Positions 2,637-12,499 of a stretch of DNA of 64,000 nucleotides are shown piece by piece. The notes under the pieces were generated by a model. The model had not been told where the DNA came from and did no database searches. It worked only from the letters and a program-made list of their open reading frames with translations. The stretch's first letter is position 1. Each line of letters opens with the position of its first letter. Origin of the DNA: Notolepis coatsorum. Its lineage: Eukaryota; Chordata; Actinopteri; Aulopiformes; Paralepididae. The stretch is taken from the NCBI GenBank assembly GCA_963971535.1, contig OZ020598.1, forward strand, positions 88,302,985 to 88,366,984, given 5' to 3'. A program made the translations under genes and the position numbers.

Positions 2637-3479
2637 CAGTGGGGGCCGGTGGGTACTTCGCCACTAGGGGCGCTATACCAAACATTTTGCAAACATGTAC
2701 AGTACAGTACCACGCAACAGACTCATGGCAAGACGTGAGCGATTCGACTCACGCTCACGGCAATGAATCGGCTCTTATGAACGAGTCGCTCAGCTGTTAC
2801 TACAACAACACACAACCAGTCAAATAAAGTATAGTCTAGACTCTAATTCACAACTTGAAACACAATATATAAATAGAAAAGTTAGAAACAAAACTCGCCC
2901 CGTCTCCAAACACAGGCAGATCTCTCCCTCTCTCCTTCTCTCTCTCACACACAGCGCGACGTGGAATCGATTCGTTACACAATCAGACCTATTATATACC
3001 AAGAATAACTTCAGTATGAGTACAGGGCTGTACACATATTTTGCATATTGTTAAACGAGCCAAGGCTAGCTATTAAACTATCGATATGAATCGAAAATCT
3101 GGGACCCTGATGTAAACAAGACAAACGTCTTTCTCTGGTCTGCATCCCCTTAACAATTGTGTGTATTGAGCCATACTGTATTGTACCCATTCTGCAATCT
3201 GTTAATAAAGTTCTCATTCATTCATTCATTCAAACATAGACGATATTGAACAAGCCATAATCCACGTATTTTCAATCCGAGAGAGCTGCAGTAGGTGTCA
3301 TGCAGTGCTATTCCTAGCACTATTTGGGCAACTTTACACACTTCCTGTGAGTCTATGTAACACATGTGTAATTTTTATTCCAAAAATAATCATTGTTTTA
3401 TATTTCTAATCTTGTACTCAAAACCAGCATTTTTCAGCCTCATGAAATCAGGCTATTATTTGGCTTGGCTCCACCCACA

Positions 3480-3616
3480 CTTTGAGTGACAGCCACCCAC
3501 CAAATAGCTCCGCCCATCTCCCCGTCATTCCATCCAGGTAGAGGTCTGAGGTCTTAGGTTTCAGGTTTTTATTTCGACACGCAAAAACATATACCGATTT
3601 TACTAACTAATACAAC
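3480..3616 (+). promoter_or_regulatory. Probable promoter of the P2X7-domain gene
   Basis: The 140 bp upstream of the start codon holds two GC/CACCC-type boxes, GGCTCCACCCACA and AGCTCCGCCCAT (about 3508-3517), with no clear TATA box. This is inference from position and box content only. Confidence 0.35.
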
Positions 3617-5211
3617 ATGGCTGTACATTATGTTTGGGATCCAGAGAGCGACCCACAGTTTGATCCCGAAGAAGAAGAAGAAGGCGATTTGCTACAGCGA
3701 GGCTTACATTACATCGTTTCCGATTGGTAAGTTGATTAATTGCACTATTAGTTACTTACTGTTATATAATAGTTGTGTACTTCTGTCGCGCGCGGCCCGT
3801 CGAAAACACACACTCACTAACGTTAGATTGTACTGACACTAACCCCCAAACAACAGCGATCGAGGCTTACGTTACATCGTTTCCGATTGGTAAGTTGATT
3901 AATTGCACTATTAGTTACTTACTGTTATATAATAGTTGTGTACTTCTGTCGCGCGCGGCCCGTCGAAAACACACACTCTGTCCCGATGAGAGTCTCTGCT
4001 CGGAGACTGTTGCTTCTGTGAACAGTGTGACTGAAAGATAAAGATGATTGACTGTTGCTTCTGTGAACAGTGTGACTGAAAGATAAAGATGACTGACTGT
4101 TGCTTCTGTGAACAGTGTGACTGAAAGATAAAGATGATCGACTGTTGCTTCTGTGAACAGTGTGACTGAAAGATAAAGATGACTGACTGTTGCTTCTGTG
4201 AACAGTGTGACTGAAAGATAAAGATGATTGACTGTTGCTTCTGTGAACAGTGTGACTGAAAGATAAAGATGATTGACTGTTGCTTCTGTGAACAGTGTGA
4301 CTGAAAGATAAAGATGACTGACTGTTGCTTCTGTGAACAGTGTGACTGAAAGATAAAGATGATTGACTGTTGCTTCTGTGAACAGTGTGACTGATTGTAC
4401 TGACTGACACTAACTGTACTTGACGATTGAAATTGGGGGACCCTGATGTAAACAAGACGAAAGTCTTTCTCTGGCCTCCATTGATTGATAATTTCATTCA
4501 CCCTCAAATCTACTAGGTGCACGTGCGGAAATTGTGAACGGATGCCAACAGAGACTGAGAATGTATGCTGCATGGAAGTTCCACAGGTAAAGTAGTAACA
4601 CAAACTTGCATCTTGGTAGCACTGAAAACCATGCATATGGCTAACGATTTAATTTTCTATATATATAGGTCAGACGTCGAATTAACCAGGAACCAACTGG
4701 ACTACTGTGCATGGTTGATCATCCGGGATTGGATCCAGTGTGCTTCAACCCCTATACCATCCAAATGGCAACTAATATCTACAAGGCAGATTTTGGCCGG
4801 ATACCAGAAAGCGGAATCAATAAGTAAATAATATTTATTACAGATTTATATATTTTTTTACAGGTGTTTCTCCATCTTGCATCTCTCAGACTATACTAAT
4901 CTTTCTTGCAAACACAATCTAATCCTTATTGCACATCACATATAATCAATGCTTGCTACTGTCCAATGACATGACATGACAAATGGTTATTTCCCAGCTT
5001 TTTTTTTTATTTTATTTGTGCATAAATATAATACTTGATTTTCTTCAGCCGTTTCAGATATATCGCGTACAGATGCTTTGTCGCGTGGTGCTTCGGCTAC
5101 TTAGGCCGCAGAGTGAGGGTAGTAATCCCATCCTGTGTCGTGGTTCGAATCCGCACAGAATTTCCGGATGTTGATGGTGTCTATACTGGCTTCAGACCGG
5201 TACAGGATTGA
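3617..5211 (+). CDS. P2X7 receptor cytoplasmic (ballast) domain-like protein, 4 exons
   Basis: Exons 3617-3726, 4517-4586, 4669-4823 and 5058-5211 splice with GT-AG borders and sum to 489 nt, giving a 162 aa protein with no stop or frameshift. The N-terminus is acidic (a run of five Glu near residue 20). The rest is cysteine-rich: WCTCGNC and ENVCCMEVP, then DHPGLDPVC, AYRCFVAWCFGYLG, VIPSCVVVRIRTEFP and VYTGF. These blocks match in order the intracellular C-terminal domain of P2X7 receptors, which binds zinc through its cysteines and also binds guanine nucleotides. No membrane segment or P2X ectodomain is present, so this is a free-standing soluble version. It converges on the THAP transposase gene; the coding ends overlap by 20 bp. 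A plus-strand AATAAA lies at 5491-5496. Exon borders are inferred from frame and splice consensus; the function in this setting is unknown. Confidence 0.82.
3689..3980 (+). repeat. Tandem duplication of exon 1 end and intron 1 start
   Basis: About 120 bp (GCGAGGCTTACATTACATCG through GCGCGCGGCCCGTCGAAAAC) occurs at about 3689-3810 and again at about 3861-3978. Both copies carry the end of exon 1 and a GTAAGT donor. Only the first copy is joined to the start codon, so the second is an alternative or decoy donor. Confidence 0.85.
4004..4394. repeat. 45-bp minisatellite in intron 1
   Basis: About 8.7 nearly identical 45-bp units beginning GACTGTTGCTTCTGTGAACA. Because 45 is a multiple of three, long open frames with a 15-residue repeat appear on the minus strand. 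They are by-products of the repeat. Confidence 0.95.
5011..5016 (-). promoter_or_regulatory. Candidate poly(A) signal of the THAP gene
   Basis: AATAAA on the minus strand about 180 nt beyond the transposase stop codon. It lies in the last intron of the opposing gene, so the two transcripts would overlap for several hundred bases. Confidence 0.4.
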
Positions 5212-8200
5212 ATCGTGACACATAGCCGGCAACCGCTTCTTCCATGGAAGGCCTGTCGAACTGTGCGCACAAAGGTTCTGGGATGGCAATCGCCTCTACC
5301 ACCTGGATATATTGTTGGGGGTCACGAAGGACGGAGTCAAACAGGAGCGCCATCAGCTGGTTGACATAGTCTGTAAATGAGAAATTGTTATTTGTTTTGT
5401 CATGTTAAAAAGGTTATTATTTATTCAATTTATTGTATTCCACTGTAAGTGGAAATATTTTTCTATTTATATAGGTCATGTGTGTGCAATAATAAATGTT
5501 GATATTTTTACTTACTGAATGTCGCTGGGATTTTCCTTGGTTTTATTGTGTGTCCACCTTTTTTGGCCTTTGGAAAACTCATCTTGTACGCCGGCTCTCC
5601 AGAAGCGTTTATGGCTTGCTGGCGATTTGAGTTTTCATTGAAATGCATGGCAGCTAGGTATAGTCTGAAAGGAAAATTTCAATAAGCACAAGCAATATAT
5701 TTGTAGTTGATCTGAGGTTATCTAATGCAACATAATGAGTTATTTGACAAATCAGGAGTCCATAATTAGTCATTTGTACACAATATAAAATACCTGCAAA
5801 GCATTCCTATGTACGAAAAAACCACGTTTTTTGGGGCAAAACGTAAAATCACACTGTGATAGGACTCCAATGAAGACGTTTGATGGTGTGGACTCAATTT
5901 GGCGACATCTTTGATGATCCTTGTGTTTAGCAAAACCTTCTCGAGCTGGTGGGCCGGTTTTGAGTCTAAAGTAAAAAAGAAATTGCATTCAGATATTTCA
6001 TTAGAGTATATTACAGTAGATTAGAATTATTCAAGCAAGTATACATTTGTAAATCACACCAATCTAGAATGAGGACATAAATAAATATTTTGAGTATATA
6101 TTCATGATGAAAGACAGACAGACATACCAGGTTTAACCCACTTGCTACTATCTCTTGATACACGGTCAGCATGAAGACAACGCGGATAGAGTGGTTCTTC
6201 GTCGTGTTCATGTACATTCATCATGTGATTGAGACATGACTTCCACCTAGCAACCCTCTCATCGGCAGACTTCGACGTGGCAGCTGTCCAGTAGAGGTGG
6301 TTTGAAATGTGCAGGCGCCACTTTTTTATGACCTTGCAGTCTTTCGCCTGTGCAATTTTGTCAAGCTTCTTAGACAGACCTTGAATTACATAACATAACA
6401 TAACATTACATAACAGTCGTATGACATACATGACATACAGATAGACAGTACTGCTACATCTACATTTTTTGACATACCAGATTTGCAATTACAGTACTGG
6501 TTGGGTGGGTGGGGGGGGGGGGGGGGGGGGGTTGGTAGGAGGGGTGGAATTGAATGTGGGATGCCTTTCGACATACCTTTGGCCACGTGCCACACATCGT
6601 AGAAGTGTTTGATGTCGTGATCTCTCAGGTACTTTTGGATCTGCGGGTGACGGTCTGTGACAATACAGTCCAAGGTCACGGATTTGGCGTCCAGAAGAGC
6701 GAGGCTTCTCCTCAAGCCCTCCAGTTCCATATGGTAGCTGCCTCCCACCTCATTGCTCTGGAACAAGGAAGGGAATAGCCTTTTCAAAATTCCACAATTA
6801 ACATTTCCTAACCCCCGCTCACACACACAGCCAGCCAGACCACTTCACACCCCGCTCACACACACAGCCAGCCAGACCACTTCACACCTACAGCGATTCA
6901 AGATTCAAGACCGAGAGCTTTGTGTTCGTTTGAGCACAATGAAGGGTGCAGTGTCTCTTCAGACTTGTTAATTACCTGAATTAGTTGGACGTCTATGACA
7001 TGATTGGTGGCGAGTTCCATCACAGAGTAACTTCCGTACTTAGCACTGTGGCCTGTTGAAAATAATAATAACAATTTCAATCAATGTAGTGCAATATTAA
7101 AAATGTATTCATAAAGTAGGAATTTGTCATTGGGGAGCTTTTTCTAACCTGGACTATCGGCTCGCATGTCACCGCCGATTATCACGCTTTCTTTCTCGCT
7201 TAATCTGGCGAGGGTAACGTCTTGGTCCTTGGTCCACAAACTTAGAACAGCAGGTTCCAAGAACTTCTTGGCGTGTTCCCGAAACGCTCTGTACTTTATT
7301 GTGGAGACGTGTAACGCATTTAGGACCTAAAAGAATAAATGAATAACGCTTTGTTAATATGCACGTGTGAATCACAAACAAAAACATAATGTATATCTGA
7401 CTTGTCAATCAAATCAATCAAATCAAATACCTTCTCCATTTGGGTGAAAGATGAGCCAGTGAAAAATACTGCTGCAGAAAGCTGAATATTTCCAGCTGGT
7501 GTGATGCCGATGAGAGGCTGACTCGCCCATTTACGGCTGTATTTACAACCGGGGCAAACTTGGGAGACAGCCAAGAAGGTCCCTCGCGTAGTTTTGGTGA
7601 TATGACATTGAGCATTGCACACCGGACACTGTTGAAATAATTCCAGTAGACTGTCTTCGTAAACGATGTATTTCTGGACCTCATAGATTGGTTTTGACGG
7701 TTCCCTGCTCGAGAAAAACACAAATAAATAACACGGCACAACTATATAGCTTTTGTATTTTTACGGGCCATGGAGATGTTTGTAACAACTAACTTACGCT
7801 AGAATCGAGGGCTCGCTAATCAAAGAGTCAATGTTGAAAGTGGAATCCTGCGGCGGCTCTGGAACATCGATCGAGCTGTCGGTCACTCCATCGTCATCGT
7901 CATCAGACTCCAGTCGTGGTCTTTTACTGGGTCTAAACCCCTTCACAGGTGTTGACGTGGATGGTCCCTGTTGATTAGACCAGTATCCAGTATTTTGTGT
8001 CCCCACCGAGACCGACATGACTTTCGCCTGAACACCTATTTACAAAACATAGTTTAGTCAAACAAGGGATTTATTGATAACTTTGCTCACTCACTCACTC
8101 ACTCACTCACACACTCACACATTGTGACCTGCTCTGGCGTAACGCCAACATGGGTCACCACACTAGAGCTAAATTTGATTTGCAAATACAGTACTGTTTG

Positions 8201-9086
8201 TGATACTGAAGGAGTCAAGAAAAGGGAGTATATACATTTGACTGTATATACTGTATATATACTGTATATTGACAACCATACTGGGTAATTTACATTGGAG
8301 GTGGGGGGGGGGGGGGGGACACTATACAAACAATCCACATTCCTTTACAGCTTTGGGTGAAAGCGGTGGGTGAAGGGGGCCAATCTAAACAATTCTGGGT
8401 CACATTATTACACATTATTACATTACATCACACTGAGTTACAAACCTACCTTGACTCTTGACATGCGAACGAAGTGTTTTCATAGAAAGCTGTGTACCAA
8501 CAGAACGAATCTTTGGGTTGTCTGTCTGGCAACTGAAGTCCCTTGAAGCAGGAGAAAGGCGTACATTGCCGCTGGAACTTGTGGTGGCCTAAGAGTTACC
8601 AAATCGTAAATCAATTACAATATAATACAAGCCACTAAATATAACGTTACCTTGTTTACCTCTCACTAGTTGTGTTCTTTTATTTAGAAGTTATGACTAG
8701 CTTGCTTCAATAGTTTTCTATAACGTTACTTTATAAAGAGCAGCAGTTACTAATAAAACGTTAGATGGTATTTATGATAACATATCTCACACGACATATC
8801 TACTTACTATTTCTTGTGTCGGGTCGCGTATTGAAGGCACAGCTCTTTTGGTTAGCACCAACATGGAGACCACTCCAGCATCAAAAATACCTTGATTGGT
8901 GACGTCGTCGGCGGAGAAATGTGCAGTACAAACCCGAGTATTAGACGTTGCAACGGAACTTGGAGGGTCACCAAAAAGGAACTTGTTCCATTGTTGGCGA
9001 AGTTCGGCATCAACGGGGAAACTGTGCAAAGACTTCTCGGTAGCTCTACAACCAGGAACATTACATCTGCGGGGTTTGCTGCTCAT
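5192..9086 (-). CDS. THAP-domain DDE transposase-like protein, 11 exons, apparently intact
   Basis: Minus-strand exons 9086-8808, 8588-8450, 8035-7798, 7704-7431, 7326-7149, 7052-6976, 6757-6577, 6379-6128, 5965-5794, 5664-5516 and 5370-5192 all have GT-AG introns and join in frame: 2118 nt, 705 aa plus stop. Residues 1-86 are a THAP finger (C8, C13, W33, C53, H56, ending in AVPSI). Then come an acidic linker with an RPSKR-like basic patch, a CxxC pair region (C245/C248 and C269/C272), and an RNase H-like core. In the core, D363 or D367 (GGDMRADSPG), D430 (CIVTDRH), DVWHVAKG and E607 (HFNEN) are candidate catalytic residues. Expected role: nuclear DNA binding and transposition. The family is common in fish genomes. 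It is not a P-element transposase; Kolobok-type is a candidate but unproven. The last 20 coding bases overlap the opposing gene. Confidence 0.85.
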
Positions 9087-9270
9087 CGTGAAATTGAGGC
9101 GAGTGACGGCAATTTCTGTTTCCAGGTTGTATCGGCTCCAGGTACCAAGAATGGAGGCGGGCATTAGGTAAAACCACACAGCCAATCACATCACCTTGCG
9201 CTATAAACAGCGCCCTGTGACGTTGCCCAGCTCGTCAAATCAACATGACCTGATTTACTAGAGGCAAACA
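9087..9270 (-). promoter_or_regulatory. Probable promoter of the THAP gene
   Basis: Upstream of the minus-strand start codon there are a CCAAT box in inverted orientation at 9182-9186 and a CRE-like GTGACGTT near 9216. No TATA box is obvious. Assignment is by position only. Confidence 0.35.
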
Positions 9271-9604
9271 GGGGATGGGCTGTAGCTGAGGAATTCGTCA
9301 ATATAGTATTTAGGCCCAAAAACACATTGATACGAACTCCTATTACTATAATACAATGCTAGAGACTGAAAAATGACATTTATAACGCATAGCCCCTTTA
9401 AATCAATGAGCCATCGACACAGTCAGTGTGCGGTAACGTTATTATTGCATCCAAGATTGATACACGGCTGGCTAGGCAGTTGGTAGTCATAGTCTTGTGT
9501 TATAAAATAAATAAACAATCAGCAATGTCTCGCTTCATGAATGGCCAGCAGTAGCCTAACAGTACTGCTCCTAAAAAAAACTATTTACAAACGTTAACGT
9601 TAAC

Positions 9605-11552: not shown

Positions 11553-12133
11553 GTTCATTGTTCAGGGCCCTGGGGGAAGAAGCTGAGCCGAAGCCTCTCT
11601 GTCCTAGTAGCTGGTGTTCGCAGGCGTCTGCCTGACCTCAGCAGCTGGAACAGGCTGTTATTGGGGTGGTGAGGGTCTTTCATTATTCTGCAGGCTCTGG
11701 ATTTGCACCTCTTGTTGTATAGAACCTCCAGGGGAGGTAGTGCAATACCCGTGGTACGCTCGGCAGAGCGCACCACTCTCTGTAGGGCCTTCTTGTCCTG
11801 TGCCGTGCTGTTACCATACCAGGCAGTGATGTTTCCAGTCAAGATGCTCTCTACAGCTCCGGAGTAGAAGGACTGGAGTATCTTCCCCGATACTCTGAAC
11901 TTCCTTAACTGTCTCAGGTGGTAGAGGCGCTGCTTCGCCTTTTTTACAACTGTGTCTATGTGTGTTGACCATGTCAGATCCTCTGAGATGTGGACCCCCA
12001 GGTACTTAAAGCTGCTCACCCTGTCCACGGTGGCCCCGTTTATCCTCAGTGGTGTGTGTGTCTCCTGCTGTCCTCTCCTATAATCCACGATCAGCTCCTT
12101 GGTTTTACCAATGTTCAGGAGCAGGCTGTTGTC
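11553..12133 (-). pseudogene. L2-like LINE reverse transcriptase, C-terminal fragment
   Basis: The minus-strand frame encodes the region after the RT active site (NSLLLNIGKTKELIVDYRRG, SSFKYLGVHISEDLTWSTHI, and [14 protein letters not shown] up to the C-terminus ending FFPQG). It is closely similar to the longer L2 copy at 56049-57443. The copy is 5'-truncated at about 12133, where it meets an (ATA)n tract. Its 3' UTR is the segment 2244-2636 on the far side of the 8.9 kb insertion. Confidence 0.85.
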
Positions 12134-12499
12134 ATAATAATAATAATGCAGGACCTCTTTTAGGGGGTCTTTAATCGGCATGCAACGAACTGGACATGCA
12201 ATTGGCGCGGCACACACACAATGCATTGTCTTTTTCTCAGTCGCCGATGCGATAGAGTCTCTGCGCCTAACCCATCCCGTCGTCCTTCCCCCCATGGGCA
12301 GCCGGGAGCAGGTAGGGCGTCAACGTGAGCCGCGCCCCGGGGACCAATCCAAGTGCTCCTGTCCGTCTTCGTCAAGGACGCACAGTGTTAGCGATCTGTT
12401 GTTGTGCATGTTTTTCCATTGGGTTTATCTTATCGGGGGGGAACCCTTGCGAGCACGGGGATAACATGCAAACTCCACACAGAAAGGCCTGGGAGATAC

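Follow-up and report, generated by a model that had tools for sequence, protein, structure and literature searches.

The stretch of Notolepis coatsorum DNA analysed here (the window; 64,000 nt, OZ020598.1:88302985-88366984, G000:C43:88302985-88366984, forward strand; genome 3.42 Gb) contains a transposon that carries, in convergent orientation, a THAP-bearing transposase gene and a gene for a protein (KolX) related to the ballast domain of the P2X7 receptor (Table 1). On the basis of its ends, motifs, KolX gene, and the published definition, we assign it with a probability of about 95% to the Kolobok transposons of the Kol0 type, as an autonomous and recently active element. An earlier note on this DNA had described the interval 3617 to 9086 as a transposon-borne gene pair. 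This interval runs from start codon to start codon, whereas the full unit spans 3293-9397; that the two convergent genes travel together was borne out, since they lie in one unit with defined ends, TTAA, and hundreds of copies.

Table 1 Features of the transposon in the window.
Feature	Position	Strand	Remark
Complete Kolobok (Kol0-type) DNA transposon, 6105 bp	3293..9397	.	Ends common to fetched copies; TTAA outside ends
Left terminus AGGTGTCATGC	3293..3303	+	Degenerate inverted repeat, 8/11 vs right end, counted by eye
KolX exon 1, acidic N-terminus, least certain exon	3617..3726	+	
45-bp tandem repeat, KolX intron 1	4005..4394	.	Unit number varies between copies
KolX exon 2 (CTCGNC, CC)	4517..4586	+	
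KolX exon 3	4669..4823	+	
KolX exon 4, stop 5209-5211	5049..5211	+	
Transposase exon 11, stop	5192..5370	-	20-bp overlap with KolX tail
Transposase exon 10	5516..5664	-	
Transposase exon 9, third acidic residue (putative) in LESYH	5794..5965	-	
Transposase exon 8, H2CH-type zinc motif	6128..6379	-	
Transposase exon 7, second acidic motif (putative) DCIVTD and DVWH	6577..6757	-	
Transposase exon 6	6976..7052	-	
Transposase exon 5, first acidic motif (putative) GGDMRAD	7149..7326	-	
Transposase exon 4 (CPVC...CPGC)	7431..7704	-	
Transposase exon 3	7798..8035	-	
Transposase exon 2	8450..8588	-	
Transposase exon 1, THAP finger	8808..9086	-	
Right terminus, AGGGGCTATGC reading inwards	9387..9397	-	
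Right target-site duplicate TTAA	9398..9401	.	Left duplicate missing in window copy

A 1-kb probe gave 372 candidate places in the genome, and the 40 of these that were scored were all 100% identical over 1 kb. The copy set consisted of 20 of the first 22 of these places (L011 is the window; two places in a rearranged C32 cluster were omitted). The left end was present in 19 of the 20 loci, always starting at the position of window 3293 (L020 has no left end), and the right end was seen in 19 loci, always stopping at 9397 (the sequence of L014 stops before it). TTAA followed each right end and preceded each left end except that of the window, where CAGT (GCAGT) stands just before 3293. Genome-wide, the 28-nt left end had 289 exact matches, 286 of them directly after TTAA, while the reversed control had 0. 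These matches and the ends of the fetched loci display the TTAA target-site duplication of Koloboks, and the termini AG...CT agree with the Kolobok end rule 5'-RR...YY-3'. The flank of L028 holds a related repeat without the element, with the empty site GCTGCAGTAG TTAA ATCAATGAGCCATCGA; the left part of this repeat is 96.8% identical, and its right-hand match resumes past a gap. Since this related repeat has an empty TTAA, the window element appears to have entered that TTAA. Judging from this one paralogous empty site, its left side may later have lost six bases (AGTTAA, between two AG).

Several structural variants of the element were observed. In L046 (subfamily D), TTAA and a left end AGGGGCTATGCA were read by eye upstream of KolX exon 1, and this left end, again by eye, resembles the right end more than the window's left end does. 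L016 contains a head-to-tail junction of two copies with a single TTAA in common, and four left ends and four KolX exons stand in a row on one strand at G000:C7:102167820-102183105, apparently as a tandem array of the element. In ten of the 20 copies (L015, L017, L019, L021, L022, L023, and L025-L028), the transposase intron 8036-8449 is enlarged at point 8139-8171 by an insert of at least several hundred bp; with half of the copies affected, an insert appears to have been spread along with the element. Beyond the element, the window has a 254-codon open frame at 11555-12319, which by eye resembles the end of a LINE reverse transcriptase.

The transposase was predicted on the minus strand from 11 exons (9086 to 5192; 2118 nt, 705 aa) with consistent phases, and KolX on the plus strand from four exons (3617 to 5211; 498 nt, 165 aa). 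Introns in both genes are GT-AG throughout, and the two coding sequences have their last 20 bp (5192-5211) in common, tail to tail. Both genes assemble as spliced, in-frame genes, as had been proposed, with fitting Pfam domains and open frames in most copies (see below); the proposed 705 codons of the transposase were recovered, whereas the second gene, put at 162 codons, came to 165 aa. The transposase matched Pfam THAP (E=5.7e-11) and Mutator-like transposase (E=5e-8), and its PDB matches were two THAP domains only, both weak (E=0.04-0.08). Together with the D/D/E motifs, these matches agree with the THAP finger and DDE-type motifs that had been read from the letters. The putative catalytic residues, in the pattern DDD/E plus C/DxxH, are D363/D367, D425/D430, and E573, with DVWH at 449-452; a zinc motif (CLNHMMNVHEHDEEPLYPRCLH at 504) lies between DxxH and E, in addition to the THAP finger. 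piggyBac, which also uses TTAA, was considered and rejected, THAP and Mutator-like being the only Pfam matches of the transposase over the cut-off. Neither protein had a Pfam match to the KolobokP, KolobokE, KolobokD, or KolobokH gene products (His-Me nuclease, lambda exonuclease, DEDDh exonuclease, and RecQ helicase).

KolX matched Pfam P2RX7_C over residues 35-161 (E=3.3e-18), and its nearest solved structures in PDB were full-length P2X7 receptors (best E=9.8e-12). At the sequence level, KolX thus appears to be a ballast-type protein, in line with the stand-alone P2X7 cytoplasmic domain recognised earlier. Eight cysteines aligned between KolX and P2X7. Of the GDP-site residues named in Rump 2020 (PMC7016195), i.e., R546, H547, R574, R578, and K583, only R546 and R578 are kept (2/5, our own count along the P2X7 alignment). 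Because so few of these residues are kept while the eight cysteines align, P2X7-type nucleotide binding is an unlikely role for KolX. The gene model is least secure in exon 1, where other splicing may occur; in L046, the stretch matching exon 1 reaches a stop codon (by eye). At 3698-3978, the end of exon 1 and the start of intron 1 are tandemly duplicated (by eye), with a copy-dependent unit number, and this duplication might permit an alternative splice.

The KolX frame was open in 19 and the transposase frame in 17 of the 20 loci, and both were open in 16, the window included; this share is biased upwards because the loci were drawn from the best matches of the 1-kb probe. The broken copies are L009, L010, L018, and L028, and L014 and L018 have an in-frame 3-nt change in KolX exon 1. 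A search of the genome with Pfam P2RX7_C gave 614 candidates. Among the 150 of these that were scored, 149 were of the KolX exon-4 type (profile 143-192), and the remaining one was a long host-like P2RX7 in a single open frame (profile 37-191). We fetched 16 of the 149 places, mostly top- and bottom-scoring ones, and all 16 had adjoining transposase exons in convergent orientation and were 90-99.6% identical to the window. In this genome, then, the P2X7-like gene is neither single-copy nor found alone in the further copies fetched. On contig C1, 24 of the 26 exact matches of a transposase-intron probe were accompanied by one of the KolX exon 4 matches listed, at most 800 bp away and in the same strand, and the other two were absent among the KolX matches listed. 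A 29-nt intron probe used for dating copies gave 174 exact matches and 263 with up to 3 mismatches (controls, 0), and left old and young copies unseparated.

We also considered that a domesticated THAP transposase and a ballast gene resembling zebrafish nanor, both of them host genes, lie side by side by accident. Kojima and Bao 2022 (PMC9587614) suggested nanor to be a domesticated KolX, which lends this idea some sense; however, there are hundreds of copies with transposon ends and TTAA, some of them broken, and an empty site in a related repeat. Because of the 289 exact left ends, nearly all after TTAA, and the 16 copies open in both frames, the locus is not a host locus. Copy number and ends refute this explanation, whose probability is practically nil.

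To evaluate selection, Ka/Ks was calculated for 18 loci against the window, in which L033 and L046 are stretches of one copy and L031 and L047 of another. Ka/Ks was 0.04-0.19 for KolX and 0.12-0.30 for the transposase, apart from L032, L043, L044, and L035, in which changes are few (KolX 0.30-0.61; transposase 0.14-0.99), L047 (KolX 0.41, exon 1 unaligned), and L038 (transposase 0.54, part of exon 8 and the next intron absent). From these ranges, KolX is constrained about as strictly as the transposase. Purifying selection between subfamilies keeps both genes, and chance frames are excluded because 16 of the 20 copies are open in both and Ka/Ks against diverged subfamilies is well below 1.

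Exons and introns diverged to different extents. Between the window and all but its closest subfamily, fourfold sites differed by 11-31% and alignable introns by 1-4%. In the four fuller pairs (4517-9086), the window differed at 33/288 fourfold and 13/1090 intron sites from L029+L048, at 82/360 and 56/1416 from L039+L050, at 93/376 and 50/1380 from L046, and at 111/358 and 49/1147 from L036+L049. The ratio between subfamilies was about 6 to 10 with both genes included (Fisher P of 6e-14 to 5e-39 for pairs that are not independent). The intron class excludes, by our own judgement, the repeat-rich or hard-to-align stretches 3700-4516, 4992-5014, 6380-6576, 6800-6904, 8060-8199, and 8280-8349, which differed by 2-14% where aligned in the four pairs; the repeat-rich introns 3727-4516, 6380-6576, and 8036-8449 align poorly. 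Other diverged copies differed from the window by 13-25% at fourfold sites and 0.9-3.1% in introns, and subfamily B, the closest, at 4-5/150 and 1/661. The contrast was also found between other subfamilies (L034 vs L029, 13/150 fourfold and 2/661 introns); it was weaker in L046 vs L036 (33/353 and 27/1138) and weak or absent in the closest pairs, where changes are few. Several introns were almost substitution-free right to the splice sites, but transposase intron 1 (8589-8807) was not quiet (21/219 in L046). Exceptions among exons were transposase exon 6 (1/11 fourfold sites changed in L046) and KolX exon 3 (0/22 between the window and L029). The right end (9087-9397) differed by 17-20% in the three fuller pairs covering it and by 24% in L047, and the left end by 6% (L046 only).

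Simple mutational causes were considered. CpG decay does not lie behind the exon excess, since the contrast persisted in the four pairs after removal of CpG sites (8.5-26% fourfold vs 1.0-3.7% introns). Codon-usage or GC drift was unsupported, the fourfold composition being nearly the same. Private mutations in the 20 loci numbered 25 in 50,571 exon cells and 6 in 37,514 intron cells; leaving out L028, which diverges most, gave 16/48,051 and 4/35,638 (P=0.04), with 9 and 3 of these outside CpG (P=0.25). A higher mutation rate of exons is thus a possible part of the cause, but hardly all of it. Transitions were low among the fourfold changes of L036 (31/111, compared with 23/36 among private mutations), but its introns showed the same (15/49; P=0.85 against its fourfold sites, with P=0.02 for L046 and 0.04 for L039), and we therefore draw no conclusion from the low transition share.

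It is possible, though doubtful, that fourfold sites and the right end of the old subfamilies are neutral and most introns are under strong constraint. The noncoding right end is indeed almost as diverged as the fourfold sites, and the poorly aligning repeat-rich introns and the changes in transposase intron 1 would fit as well. However, introns would have to evolve more slowly than amino-acid-changing sites (3.6%/4.3% in introns vs 5.7%/7.1% at 0-fold sites, L046/L036), the conserved introns have few indels although they are AT-rich, and copies within subfamilies C, D, and E differ by less than 1% in introns. Rather unlikely is selection that favoured change in the spliced mRNA itself, for example as an escape from small RNAs, so that synonymous sites outran introns. 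The contrast within the same copies, which holds without CpG sites and recurs in pairs of other subfamilies, is what such selection would produce; the changes are spread over both genes, neither clustered significantly nor showing a clear base-composition trend, and the introns that stay nearly unchanged up to the splice sites point the same way. It is opposed by the divergence of the right end, which is probably partly untranscribed and yet 17-24% different where covered. In addition, mismatches are tolerated in PIWI slicing (Gainetdinov 2023, PMC10338343), and escape from small RNAs would therefore be hard.

That gene conversion patched the exons, with a distant Kolobok family whose introns cannot be aligned as donor, is quite improbable. 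One clear mosaic, L030, which has an E/D/F-type exon 10, speaks for it; however, this mosaic includes intron site 5681 too, and apart from at least this one recombinant the exon variants mostly fit a single ladder-like tree. Adjacent changes were slightly above shuffles in 4/4 pairs, but this excess was reached by 9-27% of the shuffles, and clustered conversion tracts were rejected as not significant; no donor family was among the best matches listed. That synonymous diversification, with most introns near-fixed, is the trace left by an arms race against a defence reading spliced mRNA seems unlikely on present evidence. If it were true, a comparison between fourfold sites and introns would offer an easy test, needing only the genome, for RNA-level silencing pressure on any intron-bearing transposon. 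Our search for literature on intron conservation or synonymous escape in transposons turned up only work on horizontal transfer and PIWI (PMC10338343). If the combination of fast exons and slow introns holds in other families, it demands a new explanation, and it is the part of this analysis most worth following up.

As for the function of the two proteins, the transposase would bind the ends, excise the element, and join it into TTAA. KolX may be an accessory protein, stabilised by zinc, without which mobility or expression would be inefficient. It would somewhat more probably act directly with the transposase or the element DNA; action on the host instead, e.g., on silencing, is a less probable but serious option. 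Because the family is young and high in copy number with both genes open, the role of KolX is testable in cells.

The earlier note regarded the pairing of a transposase with a P2X7-type domain as undescribed, but Kojima and Bao 2022 (PMC9587614) had already described Kol0 Koloboks as coding for KolX besides the transposase, assigned KolX to the ballast fold of P2X7, and proposed a fusion with KolX as the origin of P2X7. Literature searches for KolX with Kolobok found nothing beyond that paper, and those for Kolobok with P2X7 found it and a review only; the main text of Rump 2020 (PMC7016195), an earlier paper on the origin of the ballast, has no words starting with 'transpos' or 'THAP'. The suggestion that the second protein bears on the origin of the P2X7 C-terminal domain holds, this protein being KolX, a relative of the ballast. 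The link between KolX and P2X7 is real and already in print, and the present element is a recently active member of that kind. It contributes a family that is young, high in copy number, and open in both genes, as well as purifying selection on KolX similar to that on the transposase, and the exon/intron contrast.

The P2X7 ballast shares with KolX the eight aligned cysteines and the FRYIAYRC and RIRxEFP blocks; the P2X7 receptor is a channel, whereas KolX has no channel and keeps two of the five GDP-site residues. In the P2RX7-like gene of the genome itself (L045; G000:C1:154217025-154217489), the ballast is one open exon, whereas in KolX two introns interrupt the ballast part and a third lies where it begins. 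Because of this difference, the source that was captured probably had no introns in this part, or lost them. Xenopus XKol (PMC6004289) shares THAP C2CH, H2CH, DDE, AG ends, and TTAA with the present element, but its end sequences are unlike, and 'intron', 'accessory', and 'second ORF' do not occur in the main text of that paper. The closest correspondence is with the Kol0 lineage (type Kolobok-1_XT) as defined by Kojima and Bao 2022, which likewise has a TTAA target, 5'-RR...YY-3' ends, a DDE transposase with DxxH and a zinc motif, and, as a second protein, KolX with the P2X7 ballast fold (here predicted from sequence). To that description, the present element supplies convergent overlapping genes, an intron map, and a subfamily history.
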